Shown: positions 7,078 through 48,500 of the stretch, one piece after another
How positions within the stretch are numbered: position 1 is the stretch's first letter
How the letters are laid out: each line of letters starts with the position of its first letter
Assembly: GCA_947496065.1 (NCBI GenBank)
Contig: CANMBF010000015.1
Coordinates: forward strand, 1-58,182
From: Bacteroidota bacterium
Lineage (GTDB): Bacteria > Bacteroidota > Bacteroidia > NS11-12g > UBA955
Direction of reading: 5' to 3'
Length of the DNA: 58,182 nt
Position numbers and translations under genes: made by a program
Notes under the pieces: model-generated
Told to the model about the DNA's origin: nothing
The model's input: the letters and a program-made list of their open reading frames with translations, nothing else
Database searches by the model: none

Positions 7078-7596
7078 CTACTTCACGTTTATAGTAAGCG
7101 TTTTGCTCATAGCAGGGCCATACGACATGTGCACACTGTTGCCAAACTGCAATGTGATTGTATGCATACCAGGCGTTAACATCGGGTACTTTTTAAAACT
7201 CAAAGTATCTTGCAATTGCCCTTTGCCAAAATGGTAATACCCTTCGGTTTCTTTTTGCATAGGGAACATGGTATTGGCAGGAAGTGCTGCATGATCGATC
7301 ATGATATGGTGGTGACCAACATTAGGCTCTACACCCATGGCTGGTTTTACTTCCATACCTTCGACACCAAACTTAAGAATAAAAGGTAACTTAATGTTTT
7401 GCCCTTCTTTTAAATTTGGAAAAAACACCTTTTGATTCGGCATTATGGCCGTAGTATCTTGTGCCACCGGCATGTCCATGTTTGCATCGTGTGCAGGTTC
7501 TACTGCGGTGGTTTCGGGAGCAGTTGTTGGTGCAGGTGCGTTATTGCATGCTGTAAATGCTGCAGCTGCAAATAGTGTTATTATTAGATTTTTCAT
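7078..7596 (-). CDS. DUF4399 domain lipoprotein
   Basis: The 172-residue product starts MKNLIITLFA with lipobox FTAC and Cys17, so it is a likely lipoprotein. A Thr/Pro/Ala/Glu-rich linker is followed by a DUF4399 domain (about 55-172): VFFPNLKEGQ, KFGVEGMEVKPA, GHHHIMID (His95-97) and a final GPAMSKTLTINV strand. The family's biochemical role is not established; the three His suggest metal binding. ATG 7596 was chosen because the upstream extension (MRLNQSH) would spoil the signal peptide. It is the last gene of a same-strand run with a cytochrome and a di-heme peroxidase, 89 bases after the cytochrome gene. Confidence 0.85.
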   Translation of the reverse strand: MKNLIITLFAAAAFTACNNAPAPTTAPETTAVEPAHDANMDMPVAQDTTAIMPNQKVFFPNLKEGQNIKLPFILKFGVEGMEVKPAMGVEPNVGHHHIMIDHAALPANTMFPMQKETEGYYHFGKGQLQDTLSFKKYPMLTPGMHTITLQFGNSVHMSYGPAMSKTLTINVK

Positions 7597-7685
7597 ATGT
7601 GATTGATTTAATCTCACGAAGGTAAATGTATTCCTAGCCTTACTTTTTAAAAATAATTTACATAATTATCAGATTTTACAGTCCT

Positions 7686-8066
7686 TTAACTTGGCAATTT
7701 GTATCTTAGAAATGTGACTATTTGTTCTAACTCTTCAGGAGATATAACAGTTTCCTTCATTGGATCTTCATGAGAAGGATATTGAAATCTGATTTCATAA
7801 TCCATAATTTGTGGTAGCGAAAAGTTGGGTATCGTATTTTGACCACCCTCTGTTTTATTATGGCATTTTGCACAGTTGATACCGTATAAAACCTGTCCCT
7901 TGGTATAATTAGTGAGAAATAAAGGTTTTTCTGCTTCTTTAATGTCATCCGGATAGTTGAATGGCATTGGCACGATAGCAACTACTTTTTGTTTTGCTTT
8001 ACATGCCATGAAAGCACATAAAAACAGTATTACAATGGTGTAAATTTTAAATTTGATTTTTTTCAT
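7686..8066 (-). CDS. Monoheme c-type cytochrome lipoprotein
   Basis: The 126-residue product has an N-terminal signal ending in FMAC (Cys22), a likely lipobox, and one heme c site CAKCH (residues 65-69). The C terminus (SPEELEQIVTFLRYKL) is the usual last helix of a small class I cytochrome c. The axial Met is probably the one in DPMKE. It begins one base after the stop codon of the di-heme peroxidase gene, so the two are co-transcribed, and it is a plausible electron donor or partner of the peroxidase. The partnership is inferred from position. Confidence 0.85.
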   Translation of the reverse strand: MKKIKFKIYTIVILFLCAFMACKAKQKVVAIVPMPFNYPDDIKEAEKPLFLTNYTKGQVLYGINCAKCHNKTEGGQNTIPNFSLPQIMDYEIRFQYPSHEDPMKETVISPEELEQIVTFLRYKLPS

Positions 8067-8067
8067 A

Positions 8068-9990
8068 TTAATAGGTTCCTCCTACTTTTCTATTGTTAAG
8101 TTGTGCATCACTTGAATGCGGTAATTTGTGGGGCGGTTTTTCGAATGTTATTGTTTCATTGAGCGATTGAATAAATTGTATCAAATGTTGTGCATCAGCA
8201 TCGCTCAAGCCCAATGAATCGGCTGATAGTGTTTGATTAGGTACATTTAAGCCATGGCCTGCTCCGCCACCAGTATTGTAAAAATTAATGACTTCTTTTA
8301 AACTACTAAATACACCATTGTGCATATAAGGTTTGGTGTATTCTGCATTGCGAATGGTACCTGTTCTAAATGCATTTTTTGTTTCAAACGCTGGATTTAC
8401 ACCATACCTGCCAACATCGGCACTTAAGGCTTTGTAAGCCGTATCAGCTGGTACACCCAATACCTCAAACTCAGAACTTACATATGGTGGTTTTATGCCA
8501 TTGAACTGCGGTACAAAATGACAGGTAGCACATTGCGAGCGACTCATAAATAAATTGAATCCAATCTTCACATCAGCACTTACTTCGCTTACCTTGTTCA
8601 TGGCTTTATCGAAAGGCGCATTGAACTGACTGAATCGGTTGTAGTACAAGGTAATGGCCGAGGTGATGTGTTGAAAGGTAATAGTAGTCTCTTGGGGTGT
8701 ATACTTTAACAATTTAGTAAACCCATCTCTGTACGTTTTGCAACTCAATATTTTCTCTAAAATCAATTTTTCATCACCACCCATTTCCATCGGATTTGTA
8801 ATAACATCTTTGGTTTGATTCTGCAAAGAGATGTGCTTGCCATCTAGCATTATCAAATGGTTGTTGCCAGCATTTAATAATGAAGGTGAGTTACGCGTAA
8901 GCGCTGTAATACCATCGTACGCTATGGAAGTGCGGTGAACAGTATCTGTAAAAAAAGCTGTAGGCAGGTGGCATGAAGCACAGCTCCTTTGATTGTTGCC
9001 TGATAAGATGGGATCATAAAAAAGTAATCGGCCCAATTGGTCAATTTCATTCAATGCTTTGGCATCTGTTACACGTAGATAAATACCCTTTGCATTTTGA
9101 CCGTTATACAATTCCTTATCAAAAATAGAACGGCTCTTATTATTGATTGAATAATCGACAAAACTTCTGCTTTTAATTTGATACAATTGTATGAAATTTT
9201 GATTCATCTCATACAATGGATTCACGTAAGTTTGAATAAAAGTAAAATGGTCGAAACTGCTGTAGTCCTTAGGTTGTGACGCTACAAAAGCAATGGTAGC
9301 ATTGTATAATTTCATGTATTCAGAACTCAAAGGTGTAGTTTCGAAACCTTGATTAAAGACCTCATAGGTTTCATTCATATCTTTTAACATACTGTGCAAT
9401 TCAGGAATAATTTGCGAAGTATCAGGACATTCAAATCCTGTTGTATAGATGGCTGCAAGATTCAATAAATGTAAGCGATTGCACAAGAAAAAATGATGGC
9501 AATCCTTTAAATTTTTTGTGATTGAATCAGCCTCAAAGGTAGGTATCGATTTTATTGATGAATTTATTAAATCTAATAGCGTATCTTTATTTATGCTTTC
9601 TTCATCTAGGTATAATGCGGCAAGTGTTAAACCTGCAGCTTCTCTTTTATAGGGTTTTTCAAATTTTTCAAATACCTCGGTCTCCCACTCAACAGGTAAT
9701 GGGCCGTTTATTTTTTTATAGACCACTGGCTCTAGGTAACGAAGCCAAAAGTCGAGGCCCTTTAATTGTAATCGGGTCTTATTAATTGCTTGATGAATTA
9801 ATTCAATATCACTAGCGTTATTTAAATTGCTATTCTTAATGGTAGTTAACAATGCAATTTGTTGTGCTTTTAATGCACTTATTCTTTGGAAATATAAATT
9901 CTGATAGGCGTTATCTCCCTCTCTATGCGTGAATGACAGGAGAATAAGCAATGTTAGCCCTATAGAGATTAGTAAACTTTTGATTTTCAT
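8068..9990 (-). CDS. Di-heme cytochrome c peroxidase (CcpA/MauG family) with long N-terminal extension
   Basis: The product would reduce hydrogen peroxide (or oxidise a partner, as MauG does) in the periplasm using two c hemes. The 640-residue protein has a signal anchor (SLLISIGLTLLILLSF) and about 290 residues of helical sequence without family motifs. The peroxidase core has heme sites CASCH (near residue 338) and CATCH (near 488) and late core sequence NAEYTKPYMHNG and FYNTGGG. Classical enzymes are about 330-370 residues, so the N-terminal region is an added domain of unknown role. It contains CPDTSQ but no heme motif. It precedes the monoheme cytochrome by one base and follows a hairpin that separates it from the PhoX-like gene. 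Confidence 0.88.
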   Translation of the reverse strand: MKIKSLLISIGLTLLILLSFTHREGDNAYQNLYFQRISALKAQQIALLTTIKNSNLNNASDIELIHQAINKTRLQLKGLDFWLRYLEPVVYKKINGPLPVEWETEVFEKFEKPYKREAAGLTLAALYLDEESINKDTLLDLINSSIKSIPTFEADSITKNLKDCHHFFLCNRLHLLNLAAIYTTGFECPDTSQIIPELHSMLKDMNETYEVFNQGFETTPLSSEYMKLYNATIAFVASQPKDYSSFDHFTFIQTYVNPLYEMNQNFIQLYQIKSRSFVDYSINNKSRSIFDKELYNGQNAKGIYLRVTDAKALNEIDQLGRLLFYDPILSGNNQRSCASCHLPTAFFTDTVHRTSIAYDGITALTRNSPSLLNAGNNHLIMLDGKHISLQNQTKDVITNPMEMGGDEKLILEKILSCKTYRDGFTKLLKYTPQETTITFQHITSAITLYYNRFSQFNAPFDKAMNKVSEVSADVKIGFNLFMSRSQCATCHFVPQFNGIKPPYVSSEFEVLGVPADTAYKALSADVGRYGVNPAFETKNAFRTGTIRNAEYTKPYMHNGVFSSLKEVINFYNTGGGAGHGLNVPNQTLSADSLGLSDADAQHLIQFIQSLNETITFEKPPHKLPHSSDAQLNNRKVGGTY

Positions 9991-10070: not shown

Positions 10071-13000
10071 TTAGTTATTCTTGATGATTTTGGTGGTAGA
10101 CACCTTGCCATCAATCACGACTTTTACTAAATAGATACCAGTTGGATAATTGTTTTGATTGCTACCAAAACTGAAATTATACTGACCTGCAGAAAATGCT
10201 TCATTTACAACTAGTTCAACACGTTCTCCTAAAAGATTGAATACTTCAATGCTAACTTTTGCAGCACTTACTAAATCGATCTTAACATTTGAATTCAATG
10301 TGAATGGATTCGGAGCAATTACGTATGAATTGTTATAAACAACTTGTTTGATACTGCTTGTGTTGCCGTTACCTTGTAAAGCAATGGTATAATCAAATTC
10401 GTCAGCATCATCACTCGCAACATTTAAAGTTGCAGTTCTTACACCCGAAGCAGTTGGAGCAAATTGTACAGTAATGGTTTGAGAACCATTCGCAGCAATT
10501 ACAAGTGGTAAAGTTGGTTTACCAACAAAAGTGAATTCGCTTGCGTTAGCACCAGTAAAGTATAAGTTATCTACTGTTAAGATTCCAGCACCAGTGTTCT
10601 GAATCACAAAACTCTTAGTTGCATTGCTACCTTTATTGACTGTACCAAAGTCGGTGTTGTTTCCTACATTTGGTGTTGTTGAGCCACTTGCAATACTTAC
10701 ACTGTTACCTTGAACATTAATTTCTGCTGAAACTGCAGTTCCTTGTAAAGCAAAATCATAACTGTTTTCATCAGCATCATTGTTATTGATAGTTAATGTT
10801 GCTTTTCTTAAGCCATCTGCCAAAGGCGCAAATTTAACTGTAACAATTAATGAATCACCAGCAATGATATCTTTAGGGAAAGTAGGAGCACTTACAAGTG
10901 AGAATTCAGCTGCATTGGTACCTGCAAATTTAATTGCACTGATTGTTAAAGCACCTGGACCAGCATTCTTCACAACAAATGTTTTATTAACAGATGTCTT
11001 TGTATTTAGTGTTCCAAAATCAGTATTGTCTGCAGTCGATGGTGTGATATCACCTTTTGCAATATTTACCTTGTTACCTTTAACACTTACTTCTGGATTT
11101 GAATTATAAGTATCAGGATTGTAAAGTGTCAATAATTGACCACCTTCTACTAAATCACCTGGTAATGAATAATGCGCTTGATCAGCATAAACAAACATAC
11201 CTGGACCTAAGATATCTTGCATATCTACGATTCCTGATGACTCTTCATCTTGGGTTAAGTAACTTGAACCTCCTAAGACAAATCTGTTGGCATCGTGACG
11301 AGCTATTTCTTTCACTGCATCGGTTGCAATGGTATACTGCCAGATTTTAGCAACATAACTTTGATTGCCCGGATCTTCTTGTATCATGATATGACCGAAT
11401 TTGTCTATCACCATATTGTCCATCATTTTAGGTCCTTCTGTACCATCTAATACTGCTGTGATTGTTCCTCCATTTTCTGGGTTTGCAATATCGGTAAAAC
11501 GCAATCTCCATAAACGGCTTGGTGCTGTAAATGAATTGGTGGTTACAAAATAGAAATCATTTGGATTACTTGGATCCCATGCACCATCTTCTGGTCTTAA
11601 GAAGGCTGTTACACCTGCTGTATTACTCGCTGTATTCAATGCTGCACCTGTTGTGTTGTGTACTTGACCTAAATCAAATAATGTAAATGCAGTACCTGCT
11701 GATGGTATACTTAAACTGCTCTCAGCTGTTAAACCTGATACTTTTACACCAAATAATTTACCACCACTTAAACCAGCTTTGTCGATTTCTGATCCACTGT
11801 TGGTTTTTGTTCCAATATAGAAATAGACTTGACCTGGAGTCGCATCATCTGTTCCTGCTACAATTGTTTTGTTGCTTGTATATGGACTTGCGATTGCATT
11901 CTCCCAACTGAATTTTCCAAGGTATGGTAACTCATAAGTAGTACCTGCATTAGAACCTGTTACAATGTGACCGAAAGCTCTGCCTTCTGCACCTGCTTCT
12001 TCACCATTCATGAAGATACGCTCTGTTGTTCCTAAACCTGTAGCTGCATTGTAGAATGCACTTCCTAATGGCAAGTCACCTGCGCAAAAACGGTTGAACG
12101 CTGTAGTTGTATCTTTATAAGTACTTGTTCTCCACAATTTAACTTTTGTGATTAAATCGCTTCCACTTGCTACTGATAAGTTAGTTTTGTTAACTACCCA
12201 TTTTGATACAAAAGCACCTTTTGATCCGTGGGCGTGAACTGCTCCTAATGTACTAGACATTTCATGGTTAGCTAGGAGAGTAAATGTACCATCATTGTTA
12301 TCGTATGCACCTAAGCCATCTAGTAAACCAGCCAATCTATAGCCACCTTTTACTGAATCTCCAACTGTCATTAATGCATCGGTTTTTACACCTGAAGCTA
12401 CACCTTCTAAATATGGAGTGTTAGAACTGCTTGGTAATGCACCTTTTGATGAATTATAAGTATCAGGATTGTAAAGTGTCAATAATTGACCACCTTCTAC
12501 AATATCACCTGGTATTGAATAATGCGCTTGATCAGCATAAACAAACATACCTGCACCTAAGATATCCTGTACATCAATGATACCTGATGACTCTTCATCT
12601 TGGGTTAAGTAACTTGATCCACCTAATACAAATCTATTCGCATCGTGTTGTGCAATTAATTTTACTGCATCAGTAGCAATGGTATACTGCCATATTTTAC
12701 CAATATGTGCTTGGTTACCAACATCTTCTTGCAACATGATATGACCAAATTTATCGATACCAATATTGTCTATCATCTTCGGTCCTTCTGTACCATCTAA
12801 TACTGCTGTGATTGTTCCTCCATTTTCTGGATTTGCAATATCAGTGAAACGCAATCTCCATAAACGGCTTGGCGCTGTAAATGAATTGGTAGTTGCAAAA
12901 TAGAAATCATTTGGATTGCTTGGATCCCATGCACCATCTTCTGGTCTTAAGAATGTTGTTACACCTGCTGTATTACTAGCAGTATTCAATGCTGCACCTG

Positions 13001-15143
13001 TTGTGTTGTGTACTTGACCTAAATCAAATAAGGTGAACGCTGTACCTGCTGATGGTATACTTGAACTGCTCTCAGCTGTTAAGCCTGATACTTTTACACC
13101 AAATAATTTACCACCATTCAAACCAGCTTTTTCTATCTCAGTACCACTGTTGGTTTTTGTTCCAATGTAGAAATATACTTGACCTGGAGTAGCATCATCT
13201 GTTCCTGCTACAACTGTTTTGTTGCTTGCGTATGGACTAGCGATTGAATTCTCCCAACTGAATTTACCAAGGTATGGTAACTCATAAGTAGTACCTGCAT
13301 TAGTACCTGTTACAATGTGACCGAAAGCTCTACCTTCTGGACCTGACTCTTCGCCATTCATAAAGATACGCTCTTGGGTTCCTAAACCTGTAGCTGCATT
13401 GTAGAATGAGCTTACCGGTGGTAAATCTGATGAACAAAAACGGTTAAACGCTGTAGTCGTATCTTTATAAGCACTTGTTCTCCACAATTTAACTTTTGTA
13501 ATTAAATCGCTTCCACTTGTTACTGCTAAATCTGATTTGTTAATATTCCATTTTGATACAAAGGCACCTTTTGATCCGTGGGCATGAACTGCTCCAAGGG
13601 TGTTGCCCATTTCATGGCTCACTAATACTGTAAAAGTTCCGTTGCCATTGTCGTATGCTCCTAAACCATCAGGTAAACCTGCCATTCTATAGCCACCTTT
13701 TACTGAATCGCCAGCGGTGATTAATGCATTGGTTTTTACACCTGAAGCTACACCCTCTAAATATGGAGTGTTAGAACTGCTTGGACCTGCACCGGTAGAA
13801 GGACCATTTCTAAAGCTTTTAAGCTTATTTGAGCCTTTTAATCCATAGGTATAAATGTGACAAAGTATTGATGTTGGCACAGGAATTCCATCCTGAGCAG
13901 TACATACTTGTCCAAAGTCATTGTCGTTACAAACTGCAATGGTACTATCATTAACAATGGCTAAACCTTCAGGTTTATCCAATGCTGCAGCCCAACCGTT
14001 TGCCAATAGATCTATAAATAATTTTTTCTTTACTGGTTTAACACCATTCGCTGCTAAGCCAGTAGAATCAACTAATGCTTCTAATGTTTTTCCGCCATAT
14101 AAACCAGAGTTAACGGCAGTAGCGCCATTAATATTAATTAAGTAAACACTCTTTCTATCTGTTGTTCCTCTAACTGCGTGATCAATTAACAAAAATGTTG
14201 AATCATTCACAGCAGCCATATCACCTATTTTCCAATCTCTGAATCTAATTTGGTTTGAACCAACACCAACAGGACCATCATTTAGGTATACATACATTTT
14301 TGATGTATTTGTAATAGGATCAATTTCAATCATTCTGTGCACTCTTGTTGCTTCTCCAATTGTTGTTGTTGGATATAAAATTGGACTCTGAATAATGGCA
14401 TAAATTTTACCATTAGGGGTAATAGACAAACCTTCAAAACCACGGTTATTTTTGCGATATGCAAAACATGAATCAATATAAATATCTTGTGCTTGTGCAC
14501 CAACTTTTTTAGCATATGGAGTGAATCTTGAAATAACAACACCATTAGGATTTAATTTCCAAATGGTAGGACCACCCTCTTCACTTATCCAAAAGTTACC
14601 ATCTTTGTCTACCACAATACCTTCGGCATCAATGCCCCAAATGTCTTTGGCAGCAATTTTTAAATTAAATTTAGAACAATTCAAAACTGTATCAGTAGAG
14701 GCTTGCTCTGTAGCAGTACTTCCAAACCCTGTTGGGTTCATGATACCTGTAGCGTCTGTACCACCTGGACGTTTAATTGAAATTGTTTTTAAAATTTGTA
14801 CTGAATCACCATTCAACTTAACTCTGAAAATTTTTGGAGCGTAAGTAGGTAAACCAAACATTTTGTCATAAGTAGGACGACACGTTAATGGATTGGCATT
14901 GGCCGCATCTACATTCATTCCTCTGTCAGAAATTACCCAAAATTCCTTACCATTTGTGTTAGGAATTGGATACATACCTGAAAAACCACCTTCCTTGAAT
15001 TTGATACCTTGGAAGGTGCCAATGGGCGCTGAATAATTGTTCTTGTAGTCTTGCAAAAGTGTGATTTGCGCATTCACACTCTTGTTGAGTATCGCTGCGA
15101 AAAAGAGCGATAAGACAAGCTTTAAAGTTGATTTTGATTTCAT
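10071..15143 (-). CDS. T9SS-exported protein: esterase-phytase-like domain, two PhoX/DUF839-like domains, two choice-of-anchor-D domains
   Basis: The 1690-residue product has a signal peptide (MKSKSTLKLV to VNAQ). First comes an esterase-like-activity-of-phytase domain (about 25-450; FWVISDRG, GIDAEGIVVD, FEGLSITPNG). Two near-identical 450-residue copies of a PhoX/DUF839-like domain follow (from about 455 and 905; TPYLEGVASGVKT, HEMG or HEMS, EDGAWDPSNPNDFYF). Next are two immunoglobulin-like choice-of-anchor-D domains (DFGTLN or DFGTVN with NDADE and DDADE). The C terminus is a T9SS type A sorting domain (APNPFTLNSN, YPTGIYLVKV, final KIIKNN). PhoX relatives are calcium/iron phosphatases; activity here is inferred. 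ATG 15143 was preferred over GTG 15167 because it starts a clean signal peptide. Confidence 0.85.
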   Translation of the reverse strand: MKSKSTLKLVLSLFFAAILNKSVNAQITLLQDYKNNYSAPIGTFQGIKFKEGGFSGMYPIPNTNGKEFWVISDRGMNVDAANANPLTCRPTYDKMFGLPTYAPKIFRVKLNGDSVQILKTISIKRPGGTDATGIMNPTGFGSTATEQASTDTVLNCSKFNLKIAAKDIWGIDAEGIVVDKDGNFWISEEGGPTIWKLNPNGVVISRFTPYAKKVGAQAQDIYIDSCFAYRKNNRGFEGLSITPNGKIYAIIQSPILYPTTTIGEATRVHRMIEIDPITNTSKMYVYLNDGPVGVGSNQIRFRDWKIGDMAAVNDSTFLLIDHAVRGTTDRKSVYLININGATAVNSGLYGGKTLEALVDSTGLAANGVKPVKKKLFIDLLANGWAAALDKPEGLAIVNDSTIAVCNDNDFGQVCTAQDGIPVPTSILCHIYTYGLKGSNKLKSFRNGPSTGAGPSSSNTPYLEGVASGVKTNALITAGDSVKGGYRMAGLPDGLGAYDNGNGTFTVLVSHEMGNTLGAVHAHGSKGAFVSKWNINKSDLAVTSGSDLITKVKLWRTSAYKDTTTAFNRFCSSDLPPVSSFYNAATGLGTQERIFMNGEESGPEGRAFGHIVTGTNAGTTYELPYLGKFSWENSIASPYASNKTVVAGTDDATPGQVYFYIGTKTNSGTEIEKAGLNGGKLFGVKVSGLTAESSSSIPSAGTAFTLFDLGQVHNTTGAALNTASNTAGVTTFLRPEDGAWDPSNPNDFYFATTNSFTAPSRLWRLRFTDIANPENGGTITAVLDGTEGPKMIDNIGIDKFGHIMLQEDVGNQAHIGKIWQYTIATDAVKLIAQHDANRFVLGGSSYLTQDEESSGIIDVQDILGAGMFVYADQAHYSIPGDIVEGGQLLTLYNPDTYNSSKGALPSSSNTPYLEGVASGVKTDALMTVGDSVKGGYRLAGLLDGLGAYDNNDGTFTLLANHEMSSTLGAVHAHGSKGAFVSKWVVNKTNLSVASGSDLITKVKLWRTSTYKDTTTAFNRFCAGDLPLGSAFYNAATGLGTTERIFMNGEEAGAEGRAFGHIVTGSNAGTTYELPYLGKFSWENAIASPYTSNKTIVAGTDDATPGQVYFYIGTKTNSGSEIDKAGLSGGKLFGVKVSGLTAESSLSIPSAGTAFTLFDLGQVHNTTGAALNTASNTAGVTAFLRPEDGAWDPSNPNDFYFVTTNSFTAPSRLWRLRFTDIANPENGGTITAVLDGTEGPKMMDNMVIDKFGHIMIQEDPGNQSYVAKIWQYTIATDAVKEIARHDANRFVLGGSSYLTQDEESSGIVDMQDILGPGMFVYADQAHYSLPGDLVEGGQLLTLYNPDTYNSNPEVSVKGNKVNIAKGDITPSTADNTDFGTLNTKTSVNKTFVVKNAGPGALTISAIKFAGTNAAEFSLVSAPTFPKDIIAGDSLIVTVKFAPLADGLRKATLTINNNDADENSYDFALQGTAVSAEINVQGNSVSIASGSTTPNVGNNTDFGTVNKGSNATKSFVIQNTGAGILTVDNLYFTGANASEFTFVGKPTLPLVIAANGSQTITVQFAPTASGVRTATLNVASDDADEFDYTIALQGNGNTSSIKQVVYNNSYVIAPNPFTLNSNVKIDLVSAAKVSIEVFNLLGERVELVVNEAFSAGQYNFSFGSNQNNYPTGIYLVKVVIDGKVSTTKIIKNN

Positions 15144-15289
15144 TTTAATATGATTGGTTGAATGCACAAAAATCCACTTATAGTGTTTCGCAAAACCTAT
15201 ATCAATATTAAAAAATGACTATGCTTACCTTAATTTTAGTAGAATTTAATGTGAATTTAGAGCTACTAATCATGTTAAAATACTGGTGC

Positions 15290-19045: not shown

Positions 19046-22000
19046 TTATTGGTGACTAATTTGATAAGCTACCACGGTAGTTCCGTTGCTTACTCTCAAC
19101 GTATAAATACCTGCTGAAAGATGACTCAAATCAATTGAAGCTATTGTATTTTCATCCTTCTTGCCTACCAACATAGACTTCCCGTTTAAATCAAATAATT
19201 CAAAGTCCAAACTTTCTAAGGCATCAATTACAAGGTAATTTTCTGCTGGATTTGGATACACTTTCAAACCTGGCATTTGCTTTAAGTTCTCAATTGAAGA
19301 ACTTTGTAAAGAAACAGTAATTTGTTCATTGCTACTTACACACTGTGCACTTGCAGTTTCAATAACATTTACAAGTCCTGATGTAAATGAACCCCATTTA
19401 ACACCTATTGCATTGGTGACACCACCAGAAACTTGTGAGCCATTTGTAACTGTCCAATTATAAACACTACCTGGATTATTCAGTACTGAATACGTTTGAA
19501 CAGATTGCTGAGTAGCTGTGGTAGGACCAACAATTGTAGGTTTTGCAACAGTAACAGGATTAAAGTTCTCTTTACGTGCTACTACAATTAAATGACTCTT
19601 ATTGAAAAGAACAGATGTTCCTTTAACATCCTTTTGTGAAGTAGTGGACGCTGCAGGTTCTTGAATTGACAAAAACATGTATTTAAAATCTGGTGTAAAA
19701 GTCATACCTGTTGGTTCAGATCCTGTAGGTGTAGTCATAAATAACTCAATCTTTGGTTCTGCCTGCGTGTGATCTGGTCTTACTAACCAAATATGATTTT
19801 TTCCGCCATCTTGCAATACCCATAAATTACCCTTATCGTCAAATGTTAGGTTATCATTTCCTCCACTCCAATCTTCAGCAATAACGCCTGTACCAAAATT
19901 AATTGGGTAGGTCTCTCCACCAACAAATGTTTTAAAATTAGAAACTGTAGTTCCATCATCTTTAAAACTATAAGTACGTCCTACGCCTTTTGCGGCAAAA
20001 TAAATTTGACCATTAAGTGGACTAATTTCTACATCTTCTACACCATTAAATGCTGTTGCGCCTGCATTTTTAGCTAGTAACTTGGTGTTATTTCTATCCG
20101 ATTTAGTTGTATTTGCTAGGACAACCCAAGTTCCTGTTGTACCAGTTGGATCGCCTTTACCATCTAAAAAATTGTTCAACTTCAATGCGTACAATGTTCC
20201 TGCTGATAAATTAGCCTTTTTAGAAGCAACAAATTTATAAACGTTACCATCTGGCTCGTCTTCACCGTAGTATGAAGTAATGCTATCTTGTTTGAAAACT
20301 ATGTTTTCATGACTCATACGACCCATGGCCCATAATTTTTCTGGTTTGCCATTGCCATATTCTTTAACTTTTCTTGTCTTAGGATCTATTTCTATATTCC
20401 AACCAATGTCTTCATATCCATCGGCATTCACATCACCAATTGGTGCATCCTCTTCGCAAGTAACTGTTGTACCCCAAGGTGTAAGTCCGCCTGAGCAATT
20501 GCTTGCTGTTTTAACCAAGTCGCCACCAAAACTAACTGGCAATACTGAATCTACTACCCAAGTTCCACTTGTACAATTGTAGTGTACATCTAATATAGAT
20601 ACACCACCTGGATTCTTTTCGTGATTAAGCGCAACATACCCTTTTTTACTGCTGTTGTTAATTGGGCTGTATCCAGTAAAATCAAAATTACTTGGAACTA
20701 TGCCTCCCTTACTATAAGCATCGCCTGTTTTTAAGATGGCTTGAAAACGGTGTGTTGTAGGAATACTAATGGTGTCATATTGTTCAATTGGTGTTACAGA
20801 TGTAAAACATGAAATATGACTACTTCCGCCTATACAACCTAGAGCTGCTGCATTGGCTTTATATTTTCTATTGTTTAATGCAAGGTCGAATAATACATCA
20901 GAGCTTAGGCTATCATACTGGTGAATTTCAACAGCAATATAGTTGGTATCTGCTTTTAAAACAGTTTTTGGTAAATAATACAACCAATAAACTCTTTCTT
21001 GTGGGGCTTCAACTATTTTATTAGCTTTTGTTTTAGAAAGAACAGTTCCGGCACTTATATTTTTTCTTACTACTTCTGTTCCATTAATATAAACAACCGC
21101 TCCATCATCACACATTAATTGTAATTCAATTGTGTCTGTCAAGATAGATAAATTTGAAACGACAATTGGTTTGCGGAAATAATTTGTGATGAATCTATTG
21201 CTTGGGTTTCCTTGATTAATATCTGTACCTGTAAATCCTATTTCACCAAATCCTAATGGGCCTTTTCCAAAACTCCATGTTGAGTCATTTTTATAAATAC
21301 TATTCTTCCAAGCAGTTCCTAAATTAAAACCACTGTCAGAATATAGCCAATTCGATTTCTTTACTACTGGATAAGTAGTTAAAGCAATTCTTGGTTTCAT
21401 TACGGGTCCATTGTCACCCATTAAATAATCAATAACCAATAGCGGTGCTTTTGGTGCATCTCCATCGTAAGATTCAACTTCGCGTGTGCCAGTGCCATTT
21501 AAGAAAAAGGCCATCGAATTTCCACTTTTCCAACCTGCTCTGTTAACCAAATTTTCTATAATAGGTTTTAAATTACTTGTTCTTTGATCCGCTGTTGCTG
21601 AACCTACAGTTGACCAAGAGGTTCCAGAAACATTCCAAATAATTGAATCTTGTGTCTTTATTCTTTTAGTAATATTGTAGGCAGATGAAGGATTAAAAAT
21701 TGATGGTGTATCATTGGCTTCACCTTTAATGGTAATAACACAAGGGTTTGCGTTTTTATTAATTGCATCTACTGTAAATTGGATGTATGCATTCTGAATG
21801 ATCGCCCCTTGAGGTAAATTAATATTATTAAAACGGATACCTGCTGTTTGAGGATCATTGCCAGTTGATTCTGTTCCAAGTTCTAAATCTGAACTTCCAG
21901 GATCTAAACTTCCAACAGTCTTTGCTTGGGTTTGTCCAGCTTTAGCAGGTGTCCATTCTTCTTGATCGTCATCTGCGGCACTAACACGAATAGAAAGAGT

Positions 22001-23254
22001 ACTTGTAGGGATGAATTCTATAACTAGTAATGGCGCTTTCGGTGCGTCTCCATCATAGGATTCTACTTCTCTGGTTCCTGTTCCATACATATAAAATGCC
22101 AACGGATTGCCCGATTTCCAACCATTTCTCATGATCAAGGATTGTACAATGGCTTTTAAATTTGATGTTCTTTGTTCTGTTGTTGCTGCACCAACAGTAC
22201 TCCAAGAAGTTCCAGAAACTGCCCAACTTACTGAATCCGTTGTTTTTGTTCTTGAACTAATGTTGTAAGCACTTGCAGGATTATACATAACAGCACTATC
22301 ACTAGCCTCTCCTTTAATAAGTATATTACAAGGACTATTATTCTTGCCAATGGCATCAACCGTAAATTGAATATAGGCATTGGTAATTAAAGACCCTTTA
22401 GGAATATTGATGTTGGTAAAACGCATTCCAACCATTTGGGGATCATTGCCGGTAGACTCAGCTCCAAATTCTAAATCTGAACTGCCTGGATCAAGACTTC
22501 CTACAGTTTTCGACTGCGTTTGACCTGACTTAGCAGGCAACCATTCCTCTTGATCATCATCGGCCGCATTAATTCTACTCATAATGGTTTTTGGTTCAAT
22601 GTAATTGATTACCAACATCGCTGCTTTAGGGGCATCGCCATCAAATGATTCAACTTCGCGAGTACCTGAACCATACATTAAAAACGTTAGTGGATTTCCA
22701 GATTTCCAACCACCACGATTCATTATTTGTTCTAATAAGAGTTTGATATTAGGCGTCCTTTGTTCTGTAGATGCAGCTCCAACGGTAGCCCAACTTGAAC
22801 CAGTAACAATCCATACAATTGAATCGCTCGTTTTTGAACGAGAAGAAATATTGTAAGAGACAGCAGGATTAAAGATTACTGAACTATCGCTCGCTTCTCC
22901 TTTAATGTATATCTTACAAGGATCATTATTTTTTCCAATGGCATCAACTGTAAATTGTATGTAGGCACTAAGAATGATTGACCCTTTTGGAATATTGATG
23001 TTGGTAAAACGCATTCCAACCATTTGAGGATCATTGCCAGAAGCTTCAGTTCCAAATTCTAGATCGGAGCTACCAGGATCAAGACTTCCGATGGTTTTCG
23101 ATTGTGTTTGTCCTGACTTTGCTGGCAGCCACTCCTCTTGATCATCATCTGCAGTTCCTATTCGAACATTCAATGTTTTTTGACCAAATAGATTTGGTGT
23201 TACCAGAAATGCCATAGAAAAAATGGCCGTAAATAGTAAATTTTTAAACTTCAT
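19046..23254 (-). CDS. T9SS-exported PhoX/DUF839-like protein with three tandem N-terminal modules
   Basis: The 1402-residue product has a signal peptide (MKFKNLLFTA to LFGQ). Three near-identical modules of about 197 residues follow (starting near 30, 227 and 424), each with DDDQEEW, SLDPGSSDLE, IQFTVDAI, GWKSGN and TREVES. A jelly-roll-like segment (about 620-790; DDGAVVYINGTEV) is next. The PhoX/DUF839-like domain (about 800-1230) has NHEKNPGGV, TCEEDAPIGD and DDKGNLWVLQDGG, followed by a PKD-like domain. The T9SS type A tail has LKVYPNPAENYLVI and LSAGIYTLRV. PhoX enzymes are secreted phosphatases; activity and substrate here are inferred, and the repeats may bind polymer or surface. Confidence 0.85.
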   Translation of the reverse strand: MKFKNLLFTAIFSMAFLVTPNLFGQKTLNVRIGTADDDQEEWLPAKSGQTQSKTIGSLDPGSSDLEFGTEASGNDPQMVGMRFTNINIPKGSIILSAYIQFTVDAIGKNNDPCKIYIKGEASDSSVIFNPAVSYNISSRSKTSDSIVWIVTGSSWATVGAASTEQRTPNIKLLLEQIMNRGGWKSGNPLTFLMYGSGTREVESFDGDAPKAAMLVINYIEPKTIMSRINAADDDQEEWLPAKSGQTQSKTVGSLDPGSSDLEFGAESTGNDPQMVGMRFTNINIPKGSLITNAYIQFTVDAIGKNNSPCNILIKGEASDSAVMYNPASAYNISSRTKTTDSVSWAVSGTSWSTVGAATTEQRTSNLKAIVQSLIMRNGWKSGNPLAFYMYGTGTREVESYDGDAPKAPLLVIEFIPTSTLSIRVSAADDDQEEWTPAKAGQTQAKTVGSLDPGSSDLELGTESTGNDPQTAGIRFNNINLPQGAIIQNAYIQFTVDAINKNANPCVITIKGEANDTPSIFNPSSAYNITKRIKTQDSIIWNVSGTSWSTVGSATADQRTSNLKPIIENLVNRAGWKSGNSMAFFLNGTGTREVESYDGDAPKAPLLVIDYLMGDNGPVMKPRIALTTYPVVKKSNWLYSDSGFNLGTAWKNSIYKNDSTWSFGKGPLGFGEIGFTGTDINQGNPSNRFITNYFRKPIVVSNLSILTDTIELQLMCDDGAVVYINGTEVVRKNISAGTVLSKTKANKIVEAPQERVYWLYYLPKTVLKADTNYIAVEIHQYDSLSSDVLFDLALNNRKYKANAAALGCIGGSSHISCFTSVTPIEQYDTISIPTTHRFQAILKTGDAYSKGGIVPSNFDFTGYSPINNSSKKGYVALNHEKNPGGVSILDVHYNCTSGTWVVDSVLPVSFGGDLVKTASNCSGGLTPWGTTVTCEEDAPIGDVNADGYEDIGWNIEIDPKTRKVKEYGNGKPEKLWAMGRMSHENIVFKQDSITSYYGEDEPDGNVYKFVASKKANLSAGTLYALKLNNFLDGKGDPTGTTGTWVVLANTTKSDRNNTKLLAKNAGATAFNGVEDVEISPLNGQIYFAAKGVGRTYSFKDDGTTVSNFKTFVGGETYPINFGTGVIAEDWSGGNDNLTFDDKGNLWVLQDGGKNHIWLVRPDHTQAEPKIELFMTTPTGSEPTGMTFTPDFKYMFLSIQEPAASTTSQKDVKGTSVLFNKSHLIVVARKENFNPVTVAKPTIVGPTTATQQSVQTYSVLNNPGSVYNWTVTNGSQVSGGVTNAIGVKWGSFTSGLVNVIETASAQCVSSNEQITVSLQSSSIENLKQMPGLKVYPNPAENYLVIDALESLDFELFDLNGKSMLVGKKDENTIASIDLSHLSAGIYTLRVSNGTTVVAYQISHQ

Positions 23255-27374: not shown

Positions 27375-28376
27375 ATGAAATTCTTTTTTTGGATATTCCT
27401 ATTTCTTATTAAGGGGCTGAATGCACAAGACAGCACCATACGCATTGAGGGCTACACCCAAGGCACCACTTATCATATTACTTATATTGATACGTTGGAG
27501 CGCGACTTTCAACCCGAAATAGAAACCATCTTACATAACTTTGATTTATCGGTTTCTACTTATAACCCCAACTCCATTATTTCAAAAATCAATAACAATG
27601 TTCCCAATGTTATCGTTGACCAATACTTTACCGAGTGTTTTAATAAGGCCAAAGAAGTATGGAAACACACCAATGGTGCTTTCGATCCAACTGTATTTCC
27701 TTTGGTTAATTTATGGGGGTTCGGACCATTGAGCAGCAAAACAATTGATAAGTCCAAAATCGATAGCATTAAGCAATTTGTTAGCTTTCAATTAATCGAT
27801 TTAAAAGAGGGTAAAATCATTAAAAAAGACAAAAGAGTACGCCTAGATTTTAATGCTTTTGCACAAGGTTATTCTGTAGATGTTATAGCCGCATTTTTAA
27901 GGTCACGAAATGTGCAATCTTATGTCGTAGAAATTGGCGGTGAAGTGGCGGCCAATGGTCAAAAGCCCAATGGCAACTATTGGCAAATAGGCATAGAAAA
28001 ACCCATTGATAACCACGACTCAACAAATCCTATAAAAGCCATTGCAACACTTCATAACATGGCATTAGCTACTTCGGGTAATTACAGAAAATTTTTTATT
28101 GAAAATGGTGAACGGTTTGCCCACCACATTGACCCCAAAACAGGTTACCCTGCAAAAAATAAACTATTGAGTGCCTCCGTTTTTGCTAAAGATTGTATTT
28201 CTTCTGATGCATATGCTACAGGAATACTTGTTATGGGTTTAGAGAAAGCCATTGCATTTTTGAGCCTACACCCAGAATTGCAAGCCTATCTTATTTATGC
28301 TGACAACAATTCAAGCGATGGGTACAAAGTCTATGAAACTCCTTTGATTAATTCCTATATAACTGAGATAAAATAA
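27375..28376 (+). CDS. apbE: FAD:protein FMN transferase ApbE
   Basis: ApbE uses FAD and Mg2+ to attach FMN to a Thr of exported redox proteins. The 333-residue product has a signal peptide (MKFFFWIFLF to LNAQ). Family motifs in order are EGYTQGTTYHITY, STYNPNSIISKIN, AFDPTVFPLVNLWGFG, LDFNAFAQGYSVDVI, VEIGGEVAANG, MALATSGNYRKFF, AHHIDPKTGYPA and SDAYATGILVMG. All metal and FAD ligand regions look intact. ATG 27375 gives a typical signal peptide after A-rich DNA; ATG 27351 (MTRKARLK) is possible if the mRNA is leaderless. The stop lies two bases from the stop of a convergent DUF2271 gene, its likely substrate. Confidence 0.92.
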   Translation: MKFFFWIFLFLIKGLNAQDSTIRIEGYTQGTTYHITYIDTLERDFQPEIETILHNFDLSVSTYNPNSIISKINNNVPNVIVDQYFTECFNKAKEVWKHTNGAFDPTVFPLVNLWGFGPLSSKTIDKSKIDSIKQFVSFQLIDLKEGKIIKKDKRVRLDFNAFAQGYSVDVIAAFLRSRNVQSYVVEIGGEVAANGQKPNGNYWQIGIEKPIDNHDSTNPIKAIATLHNMALATSGNYRKFFIENGERFAHHIDPKTGYPAKNKLLSASVFAKDCISSDAYATGILVMGLEKAIAFLSLHPELQAYLIYADNNSSDGYKVYETPLINSYITEIK

Positions 28377-28378
28377 GT

Positions 28379-29185
28379 CTATTTTAAAAGCGCTATTTTA
28401 AAATTTGAAATCTGATTGCTGTTAGAAATTTGGAAGGTATACATGCCATTCTCAAATGCTGATAAATCAATCGATTTTGTGGCTTCTGAAGTTGTTTCTA
28501 ATAACTCTTCATACACCAATTTTCCTGTTGCGTCTAAAACTTTTAATGTTCCTGTTTGGTTGTAATCAACATTAAAAACACCAGTGCTAGGATTAGGATA
28601 AACATTCAGTTGAAAACTCGCATTAAATGCATCAACACTAGCTGTGCCACCAGGCATCCAATCAATTTTTATATTTTTAAAATCTGCATCAGCAGCAGGC
28701 GTTTGGTGGTCTTCATTTGGACCTTTGGTGAAAGTATAAGATCGAATGGTAGTAGCATTTGTACCATGGTTCCATGTTTCTTGAATTGTAACTTTATAAG
28801 TGCCATCTGCTACAGTTGTACCATTTGAAGTTCCATTGACATTTTTACCATCCCATGTGAAGCTTTTGATCGTAAAACCATTTAAAGTTGCACCAGTGGT
28901 TGCATCTGTTTTATTACAAGCGGTTGACATGCAATTAAAAGCCGATCCACCAGAATTAACCGCCCAATCAGGCAGGTGATCGGATGTACTATTGCCTGCA
29001 TATCTCAACTTTGTTTTTACAAAACCGCCTGTGCTTGTTTGTATCCAAGCAGCCAAAACATTCTTAGTACCTTGGTAACATGGTGAATGTGAAACAGGTG
29101 TAAAGGTTACCGTTAAAACGCCGGCTGTCTGAGCGCTTAAATTAAGTGCGAGAAATAACAAAACTATAGATGAAAAGGGTTTCAT
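28379..29185 (-). CDS. DUF2271 protein with T9SS type A sorting domain; predicted flavinylated
   Basis: The 268-residue product has a signal peptide (MKPFSSIVLL to LSAQ) and a DUF2271 domain (about 20-180; NVLAAWIQTSTGGFVKTKLR, HLPDWAVNSGG). The C-terminal sorting domain has LNVYPNPSTGVFNV and FENGMYTFQI. Residues 94-100 read DATTGAT, the ApbE flavinylation pattern Asp-x-x-Thr-Gly-Ala-Thr, with Thr100 as the expected FMN acceptor. DUF2271 is linked to ApbE in extracytoplasmic flavoprotein systems. If correct, this is a flavoprotein placed outside the cell or on its surface by T9SS. ATG 29185 was chosen for the signal peptide; TAATTTTG (29191-29198) sits just upstream. Confidence 0.85.
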   Translation of the reverse strand: MKPFSSIVLLFLALNLSAQTAGVLTVTFTPVSHSPCYQGTKNVLAAWIQTSTGGFVKTKLRYAGNSTSDHLPDWAVNSGGSAFNCMSTACNKTDATTGATLNGFTIKSFTWDGKNVNGTSNGTTVADGTYKVTIQETWNHGTNATTIRSYTFTKGPNEDHQTPAADADFKNIKIDWMPGGTASVDAFNASFQLNVYPNPSTGVFNVDYNQTGTLKVLDATGKLVYEELLETTSEATKSIDLSAFENGMYTFQISNSNQISNFKIALLK

Positions 29186-44629: not shown

Positions 44630-45529
44630 TTATTTCCCTTTCTTATCCACTCGTTCATCATACTCCAAAAAAGCGGCTAGAATGAGTTGAGAATAGTTTT
44701 GGGATGATGTTTGAAATCTCCCTGCAGAGGTAGTCCAAAGTTGTTTAATTAAACCCATTCCCTGCGCGAGTTGTGGAATTGCGTTTAATGCCATGCTTAC
44801 ATTACCAGCCCCCGCATTGTATACATGCATCACCAATAATCTAAACCACAAATCATTTTCACTATAGGCAATACTGCGGGCATCTAACATCGATTTTGTA
44901 TAAGGTATGCAAATGGTTTTTATCAATTGGCTAGCTGCATAAGCCGAGCGGTTAAAATTGGCGCGCTCATCCATCTTCTTATTCACTTTTAAACCGTAAT
45001 TTCTTGCAACTCCTTTCATCAATTGGAAAGGACCATAGGCACCGGCAGTAGATTTTTGCAATTGGTTAGGACTTTCAATCAGTAATATTGCTTTTGCATA
45101 CCAACCATTCACCCCATTCTTTTCAAAGGCTTCAATGCCTATTGGCACTTTCGGTGCTACCTTCTCAAATGAATAAAAAAAACGCTTACCCATGGTACCC
45201 ACGACACGACTGCTATCATAAATACCACGCAATCTTCTTAAACTATCTGCAATTGAGAGTTTTTGATTAACGCTGTGCGTGTTCCAATAATCTGCAGGGT
45301 AGGTGCTCAATACTTTACGGCAACTGTGTACGTTAATTAAGCAGCTATCGTGGTGCAAATTCATGATTTTTCTCCAAAATATAATATGTGCCATGGTATC
45401 ACAACCCATCTGCCTCATTTCATCAGCACTATATTTTTTAAGAAATGCAATGTTATGCGTAGGTGGTTTTAAGCCCATGCTAATAACAAGAATGGGTATT
45501 AACAATATTTTAGAAAAGTAATTGACCAT
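44630..45529 (-). CDS. Lytic transglycosylase (SLT domain)
   Basis: It would cleave peptidoglycan glycan strands. The 299-residue product has a short signal peptide (about 1-20), a divergent N-terminal domain with several Cys, then an SLT domain: catalytic Glu in AILLIESPNQ (near residue 147), AGAYGPFQLMKGVARNYGL, FNRSAYAASQLI and VMHVYNAGAGNV. The first base of its ATG overlaps the last base of the upstream stop (TAATG), so it is translationally coupled to the giant C25 protease. That link suggests the transglycosylase opens the wall for, or works with, the protease or T9SS. This is inference. Confidence 0.85.
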   Translation of the reverse strand: MVNYFSKILLIPILVISMGLKPPTHNIAFLKKYSADEMRQMGCDTMAHIIFWRKIMNLHHDSCLINVHSCRKVLSTYPADYWNTHSVNQKLSIADSLRRLRGIYDSSRVVGTMGKRFFYSFEKVAPKVPIGIEAFEKNGVNGWYAKAILLIESPNQLQKSTAGAYGPFQLMKGVARNYGLKVNKKMDERANFNRSAYAASQLIKTICIPYTKSMLDARSIAYSENDLWFRLLVMHVYNAGAGNVSMALNAIPQLAQGMGLIKQLWTTSAGRFQTSSQNYSQLILAAFLEYDERVDKKGK

Positions 45530-48500
45530 TATCGCAATAGCACAATTTTACCTGTATGGTGTTTAAATAAATTATTATTGGCCTTATCAGCATTCAAATC
45601 GTTGCTCACATTGTCTGAATCAATTTGCGCAATATCCTCACCATTTGATTTAATGGTAACTGTATATAAATAAACCCCATTCGATAATCTATCGCCATAT
45701 TGATCGGTGCCATCCCAAACCACATCCGTTATGTTAGAACCTACATGGATATTTCCTAAATCATCCTTATTTAATTCCTTCACCACTTTGCCCTGAATGG
45801 TCATAATTTTTATATTGATATAATCAGGCACCTCGCTTCCAGTCAATGTAAATACAAAGCGCATGGCCGAAGTAAATGGATTGGGGTAAGGGTAAAAATT
45901 AGTCGCCGATTTTTGATTGACAACTGTGAAATTAATTTGATAATCAGTAGACCCAGCATTATTCAAATTGGCATCATTCGATTGAACTTTAAGAGTGTAA
46001 ATACCATCGGGTAAATTTTTAGGAGAAAACTCGGCTCTTGCAATGTTACTCACAGAATTTGCCGGTATAAATTTGATATCAAAACTATCAAAATCTATTC
46101 TCTCAAATTGTGTTGAATTAGGTTTTTTCCACCACAATTTAATACCGTTGCTATCAATCTGCCAATTGTAAGCATTCTCATCTTTACTTGAGATTAATAT
46201 TACAGGATTGGCAGAAACAATTTCACCATTCGAAATATGTCTTGAATCGAAGGTAACATCTAATAGTGGATTAATCTTATCTTCTGACACCTCGAAGTAA
46301 CGAATGGCTGAATTATTCACCAACGAAAGTTCTGGCATCTCTGCTTTCGAAAACGCATCAAAATTAACTTTTACCAAATAGGCATAACGACCGCTCATTT
46401 TGTTGGTTGCAAGTGTTGTTGAAATCGGAAAGAACTGCCCTGCATTCAATGGCGAACCATAATAATAGGTTGAATCATAAACCGTATCTCTAGTATCTAT
46501 ATTAAAGATTTTAACTTGGTATTTTAAGTTGGCTGGAAAAGGCAACACCGATACATTTTGAAACCCTATATTGTATCTAAATTGTTCGCCTTGTCTTAAG
46601 CTATCGCGCCATGCAATATTCGAAAGGTTAGGATTCAGCGCCCCTTCTGGCACATCGCCAGCAGAAACACGCCAATTTTTTAATTGCGGTGGTGTGTAAT
46701 TATTCTGATCAGTAAATATCCCTTCTAAATATATATTTGGAAACCGCTTGGCATCAATAGATGAGATGTCCATTTCATTAACTTTTACAAAATCTAAACA
46801 AACTGAATCGATTCCTGAATTGGTAACACCATGTACTTTAATATAAAAGTCATCGCCCAATTTAGTGTCTTTTGTTGATGTATAATGGTAGAGTTTCTTC
46901 CAATCTGATGATGGTCCAATTAATTCCGTTTTTATACTGCCTTTATCGTATTTACCAATCAACTCCTTTTGTATTTCAATGTAACTTTGATCATTGTTCA
47001 ATACCCATAACCCAGTGTCCTCAACCGCCCATCCTGGAGTAGCGCCTTTTCTACCAATCATTGCATAACTGGTATTACCAGTAAATACATTGTTCATTAA
47101 TTTACAACCTAGTTTACCAAATCCATCTATCACGTCTTGCGACCAATTCGCTCTTACACACGAACCTCTATTACATATCGCAACATAGGTGCTATCAGGT
47201 ATCGAATCAACCCATCGTGGAAATTGCCCATTGCCAGAAGGATAACCTATACTAAAATTATAAAATTTACGCACATTCTCTAACAAACCATAGGTATTAG
47301 TTGTTGCATCAAACGCATAGGCATTTGGGTTAAAAATATCTTTCAATTTAAATTGTTCCAACGTGTTCTTATCAAACAGTACCGCAACAATTCCGCCAAA
47401 CTGCGCACCTGGATTTAAGGAAGTAGCACCTTGTCCACCCTTCTTAACACCATAACCAGGATAAGTATTGATGGCTGTATTAACATATACGTATTCTGAA
47501 TTGGTGGTGTATTCAAATTCTCTGCGCACCTTATTCAATTTTATTTTATTGAGTTTACTGCTTGGATAAAATTGCGGAAAATGCGATTGCGACCAACCAG
47601 GTTGATGGTTAAAAATATGAACAAAACTTCTATCAATGTATGAGCCTTCAATACCGCCTGTATTAATTTTGGCTCTCCAATAATAAACAATACTATCACT
47701 GTTGCCTAGTAATTTGATTTTCCATTTTTGAATCTGACCAACAATGTTAGAGGAGCTATCGCTCTTCTTCCATGGACTATCAAAAGTGCTTGCTGTGTCA
47801 ATATCAAAATAAAACTGATAATTATTTTCAAAAATATTAAGCGCTTGGGCCACCAACTCTACAGTATCATTGTTTAAATTAGAGATAATATCATACTTTT
47901 TGGGGTAAATTAAATGAATACCATTGCCCGGAATCAATACACTAAAATCAGTCGAATTATTAGCATAAGCTGTTCCTTCATCAACCGTATGTAAATCATT
48001 CACAGTAATTACAAATTTATTCGTACCTGTAGTGGCAATGTCCTTCGATTTAATGTACAAAAAGTAAGTAGTTTTATTCATTACACCAGGCACTTTAAAA
48101 TTATACGTTGTTTTTATAAAATCGTTTGGATAGCTCCGTTCAACTTTAATGTTAAAAGAATCGATTAGAAATTTACCATTGTTCTCTATCGTTACGGCCA
48201 ATGCAAATGAATCACTGATGGCTGTAAAGTTTGAAGGATAGGTTGAAATTGAAGTTTCATTAATGCTATAATCCGGCAACTGTGGTTGGTACCATTCAGC
48301 CGAAGGATCGCCTTGTAAAAAAGTAATACGCCCAATAATTGTTCCTAAAGAATCAGAACTATTGTTATTATTTTTTAGCATATCCTTTACAGCATCGCCC
48401 ACTGTATAATAGCCTGTATAGTTACTTTTAAAAGATAAGCTATAAAATTCTTGCATATACTCTTGTACTTTTCCTAACTCAGTTAAACCAGTTTGGGCGA

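Follow-up and report, generated by a model that had tools for sequence, protein, structure and literature searches.

A predicted flavoprotein with a T9SS sorting domain, encoded beside ApbE in a Bacteroidota bacterium, belongs to a family of divergent DUF2271-like proteins

That DUF2271 proteins serve as ApbE substrates is already published (PMC8238504), and in A. ursilacus their flavinylation, as well as its loss upon exchange of Thr for Ala, was demonstrated in 2021 (PMC8238504). Such substrates usually sit in PepSY-like systems, and the literature assigns DUF2271 systems to the periplasm (PMC8238504). A second published flavinylation system consists of ApbE, DUF3570, DUF4266, and a thioredoxin-like protein (PMC8238504). 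Like the pair described here, it joins ApbE to a non-FMN_bind substrate in Bacteroidota, but its substrates belong to another family and lack a T9SS tail, and its ApbE is more distant. In the PplA/FmnB system of Listeria (cited in PMC8238504), an ApbE-type enzyme attaches flavin to a protein on the outside of the cell, as is proposed here, but the substrate there is an FMN_bind domain on a lipoprotein in a cell without an outer membrane, and the likeness is at most functional. Type A cargo of the T9SS, e.g., the gingipains of P. gingivalis or NucA of F. johnsoniae, likewise combines a Sec signal with a TIGR04183 tail, but none was found described with an ApbE-attached flavin. A literature search that covered few subscription journals found no publication on flavinylated T9SS cargo. 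The earlier note on this DNA had stated that an extracellular covalent flavoprotein delivered by the T9SS would be unusual. The T9SS-tailed form of DUF2271-like substrates appears to be new.

The window, i.e., the whole stretch of DNA analyzed (positions 1-58,182 of contig CANMBF010000015.1), comes from the Bacteroidota bacterium GCA_947496065.1 (UBA955). The features that concern us here are the following:

27375..28376, + strand: apbE, FAD:protein FMN transferase, 333 amino acids (PF02424, E 1.5e-79)
28379..29185, - strand: DUF2271-like protein with T9SS tail, 268 amino acids, predicted ApbE substrate (domain matches and family conservation)
29129..29185, - strand: N-terminal signal sequence, residues 1-19, MKPFSSIVLLFLALNLSAQ (assigned by eye)
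28640..29134, - strand: DUF2271-like beta-sandwich, residues 18-182, which holds the acceptor site (model and profile match)
28886..28906, - strand: flavinylation motif DATTGAT, residues 94-100 (sequence)
28886-28888, - strand: codon of the predicted acceptor Thr100 (Gly98 and Thr100 invariant in alignments)
28394..28603, - strand: T9SS type A C-terminal sorting domain, residues 195-264 (PF18962, TIGR04183, and fold match)

The apbE gene (ending at 28376) and the gene for the 268-residue protein (ending at 28379) are convergent with a gap of 2 bases, so the tail-to-tail arrangement described in the earlier note agrees with the coordinates. The pair is flanked by genes for an OMP barrel and a radical SAM protein. 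Among the flanking genes examined there is no PepSY partner, in contrast to the usual setting of DUF2271 substrates, and no iron-uptake gene adjoins the pair. A promoter scan gave fewer sites than were obtained in shuffles.

ApbE matches PF02424 with 267.7 bits, far above the cut-off of 25.6, and its N-terminus is a Sec signal sequence without a lipobox cysteine. Its closest solved relative is ApbE from V. cholerae (6nxi, E 2.2e-50), and in the alignment to this structure Ser234, His250, and Asp278 correspond to Ser241, His257, and Asp285 of the V. cholerae enzyme. The catalytic Ser, His, and Asp are retained, and the protein is predicted to be an FMN transferase. It is the sole ApbE in the genome (96.6% completeness). 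A search of the genome for the ApbE substrates FMN_bind, DUF3570, and PF10029 found none; NqrB/RnfD constitutes a further substrate family. In a tree of ApbE proteins, those adjoining members of the family described below form one group, which also includes two for which no neighboring family member was seen; the support of this node is low (0.128), and a dedicated ApbE clade for the family is not claimed.

The motif DATTGAT is present at residues 94-100 of the 268-residue protein, where the earlier note had placed it. The pattern D-x-x-[ST]-G-A-[ST] occurs in this protein only, i.e., in one of the 51 stop-to-stop frames of at least 100 amino acids in the window, and in 0.46% of shuffled versions of the protein. 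It is very unlikely that motif and apbE are paired by coincidence, given that a convergent apbE accompanies 36 of the 46 homologous loci.

The assignment to DUF2271, also made in the earlier note, holds in part. PF10029 (DUF2271) does not match the 268-residue protein at E<=1, nor does it match anything else in the whole genome, but among 37 family members 29 give a match at E<=0.01, the best of them reaching 3.9e-12, and the multidomain members L099 and L104 exceed its curated cut-off of 27.3 bits with 27.7 and 29.5 bits, respectively. In an hhalign comparison with DUF2271 proteins, TGAT is aligned with the TGAS/TGAT site of DUF2271 (E 2.3e-4, probability 44.5%); the DUF2271 profile employed had 11 rows and was weakened by one of them (L134) in the wrong frame. 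As judged from sequence, the domain is a divergent DUF2271-like domain, the label being justified solely through the homologues. With canonical DUF2271 substrates of ApbE it has in common a homologous acceptor domain, an [S/T]GA[S/T] site in register, and the link to apbE, but it differs from the canonical DUF2271/PepSY-like systems in its C-terminal T9SS tail and in a sequence that lies below Pfam detection. Weak PF10029 matches in a survey of the phylum (L054-L062) were not counted as DUF2271, since those that were read are FlgD or tailed surface proteins and share one strand pair only.

The full-length model of the 268-residue protein (pLDDT 86.6) consists of two beta domains. The acceptor domain (residues 18-182) is modeled with a pLDDT of 94.9 and a pTM of 0.90, and Thr100 lies directly behind a short strand. 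Its matches in the PDB are generic beta-sandwiches, with a best Foldseek E of 0.05, and the best VIA match is a C2 domain (Z 7.5, rmsd 3.2, 107 aligned residues). No DUF2271 or flavoprotein relative is listed among these fold matches, which excludes nothing. For the C-terminal domain, the model matches the translocon-bound NucA cargo 8glk_D (Foldseek E 5.1e-4) and the sorting domains of PorZ, mirolase, and PorU (VIA Z 9.3-10.2). Residues 195-264 match PF18962 (6.7e-14, 52.4 bits against a cut-off of 27) and TIGR04183 (1.3e-10, 41.1 bits against a cut-off of 23), and the sorting domain recognized in the earlier note is thus borne out by both profiles and by the fold of solved tails. The genome encodes the translocon protein SprA (SprA_N, E 3.0e-164) and many other T9SS-tailed proteins. 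Elsewhere in the window, two large proteins that combine a T9SS tail with PhoX or phytase-like domains are encoded at 10071-15167 and 19046-23254 (- strand), and a Peptidase C25 protein of 1711 amino acids, possibly PorU-like (PF01364, 3.7e-48), at 45529-50664 (- strand).

When genomes of bacteria and archaea were scanned, 46 loci encoding members of this family were obtained, all of them in Bacteroidota, and the T9SS tail was found in all 37 single-domain members scanned. The residue aligned with Thr100 is a threonine in 46 of 46 loci, its context being [ST]GAT in 44 and TGST in 2, and Gly98 and Thr100 are invariant in alignments of 37 and 44 rows. One of the two search patterns overlapped the motif; in the 33 loci checked separately, without that pattern, the acceptor site is kept throughout (33/33). 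The Asp that opens the motif is kept in 27 of the 46 loci and replaced in 19. A review of ApbE calls this residue strictly conserved, but states that its exchange for Ala had only minor effects in one substrate (PMC12052999).

Wherever apbE adjoins the family gene (36 of 46 loci), the two genes are convergent. The gap is smaller than 300 bases in 35 loci and amounts to 1380 bases in L083, with a TPR gene in between, and the genes beyond the pair vary widely. Flavobacterium paronense (L106), a culturable relative, also possesses the pair. When nine genomes without apbE at the locus were searched, ApbE was encoded elsewhere in seven, and in three of these seven another copy of the family adjoins apbE; in the other two ApbE is absent entirely from assemblies that may be incomplete. 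At six loci, long versions of 668-1063 amino acids begin with this acceptor domain, including the motif, and carry SprB, PKD, or Ig repeats. Five of them end with the T9SS tail; L104, the sixth, is cut off by the end of its contig. These long multidomain members, which may be large flavinylated surface proteins, are encoded at the following positions:

L069, 5929-8550
L077, 5929-9117
L085, 4360-7125
L087, 5932-8469
L099, 5932-7935
L104, 3969-6467

The family is sparse, since a profile (A2) searched against 395 genomes of the phylum matched just the genome studied here and gave one weak partial match. A plasmid search with the 268-residue protein gave no match. Full-length matches to the flavoprotein were found in 5 of 17 genomes of the genus. 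Three genomes of the same genus (L129, L130, and L131) possess instead an ApbE with DUF3570, a small, lipoprotein-like protein whose last residues are CGCN, and a thioredoxin-like protein. This corresponds to the DUF3570 system known from the literature (PMC8238504), so that two flavinylation systems alternate inside one genus.

Taken together, it is probable that the pair gives rise to a covalent flavoprotein at the cell surface or released from the cell, modified by ApbE at Thr100, exported by the T9SS, and acting as an electron carrier. Sec would carry both ApbE and the DUF2271-like protein into the periplasm, where ApbE would take FAD and attach FMN by a phosphoester to Thr100, the last residue of DATTGAT. 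Recognition of the C-terminal sorting domain would then direct the folded FMN protein through SprA; the protein would be trimmed and displayed on the surface or released, serving as electron carrier there. The sequence features and their conservation, the linkage of the two genes, the single ApbE, and the presence of SprA are shown by the analysis, whereas FMN attachment, its timing ahead of export, and a task in redox chemistry are inferred. The order of Sec transport, modification, and T9SS export is proposed because it fits a periplasmic ApbE; folding of T9SS cargo in that compartment has been proposed, and a precedent for modification ahead of export is the periplasmic glycosylation of TfsA/TfsB, which takes place even when they are not secreted (PMC10202324). 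What the earlier note had claimed, i.e., an ApbE substrate with Thr100 as acceptor and export by the T9SS, is supported at the level of sequence and model by family conservation, the single ApbE, and the modeled tail.

Two other readings assign the protein a different place or a different task. It might work mainly in the periplasm, with its sorting domain weakly used, like the DUF2271 proteins of PepSY systems, for which the periplasm is the published location (PMC8238504). Canonical DUF2271 proteins in Bacteroidota are mostly frames of 160-190 amino acids with no room for a tail; in contrast, every one of the 37 members scanned here has a tail with a good fold match to solved ones, and SprA and much other tailed cargo are encoded in the same genome, so that a mainly periplasmic role seems quite improbable. 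Alternatively, the protein might be a surface adhesin or a structural beta-sandwich in which the motif is a structural turn, while ApbE serves another protein. The repeats of the long members are typical of surface proteins and the acceptor domain does resemble generic beta-sandwiches, but such a reading leaves aside that the acceptor Thr is invariant and in register with the proven DUF2271 site, that the convergent apbE is conserved, and that the genome contains no other substrate among FMN_bind, DUF3570, and PF10029. We regard it as highly improbable and retain the exported, ApbE-modified electron carrier as the preferred reading.

The earlier note had left the electron partners of the flavoprotein open. 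This still applies to the genome studied here, in which no partner is linked to the pair, but its relatives offer candidates. A DUF5777 barrel together with a small c-type cytochrome lies within ~6 kb in 15 of the 46 loci, and YceI in 14. The cytochrome is monoheme, its haem motif being CX4CH (CVNAGCH, CGTIGCH) in L128:3145-3516, L132:2096-2470, and L070:8604-9056 and CXXCH in the other loci. Crocinitomicaceae-like loci have the genes of this DUF5777 set in another order than Flavobacterium-like ones. This speaks against a single block that was simply inherited, but the 15 loci are not phylogenetically independent. In Flavobacterium aquatile, the substrate (L100:5929-6816) and the DUF5777 set occur together, but the genome encodes a single ApbE, which lies elsewhere and is of a more distant type. 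Within the window, genes for a DUF4399 protein, a cytochrome c of small size, and a dihaem peroxidase of the MauG type lie clustered at 7078-9990 (- strand), ~17 kb away from the pair; they are possible redox partners.

As an extension of the preferred reading, one might tentatively suppose that the flavinylated exported protein passes electrons via a monoheme cytochrome c lipoprotein, the DUF5777 barrel, and YceI, a set that is the leading, though uncertain, candidate for the partner. Besides the repeated neighborhood in varied gene orders, the presence of the same set in the genome studied here speaks for it. However, in this genome the set is situated on a different contig (C17, with L128:3145-3516 as its cytochrome) from the flavoprotein pair, the loci with the set are not independent of each other, and DUF5777 occurs in 16 of 17 genomes of the genus, including members in which no flavoprotein was found, compared with the five genomes that have a full-length flavoprotein, so the DUF5777 set also functions where the flavoprotein is absent. 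That cytochrome c lipoprotein, DUF5777, and YceI constitute a dedicated outer-membrane route exchanging electrons with a T9SS-exported surface flavoprotein is rather doubtful; if true, extracellular electron transfer would run on a single bound flavin and not on multiheme cytochromes. DUF2271 systems elsewhere have been linked to ferric iron reduction (PMC8238504; PMC11870441), which makes surface metal reduction a reasonable candidate role.

The pair is small and self-contained and lends itself to direct tests. If the preferred reading is true, a cofactor-loaded protein would cross the SprA pore, and ApbE chemistry, so far found mainly at the inner membrane or in the periplasm of bacteria with an outer membrane, would reach the cell exterior. 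Environmental Bacteroidota would then carry a non-diffusible redox cofactor on their outer face.
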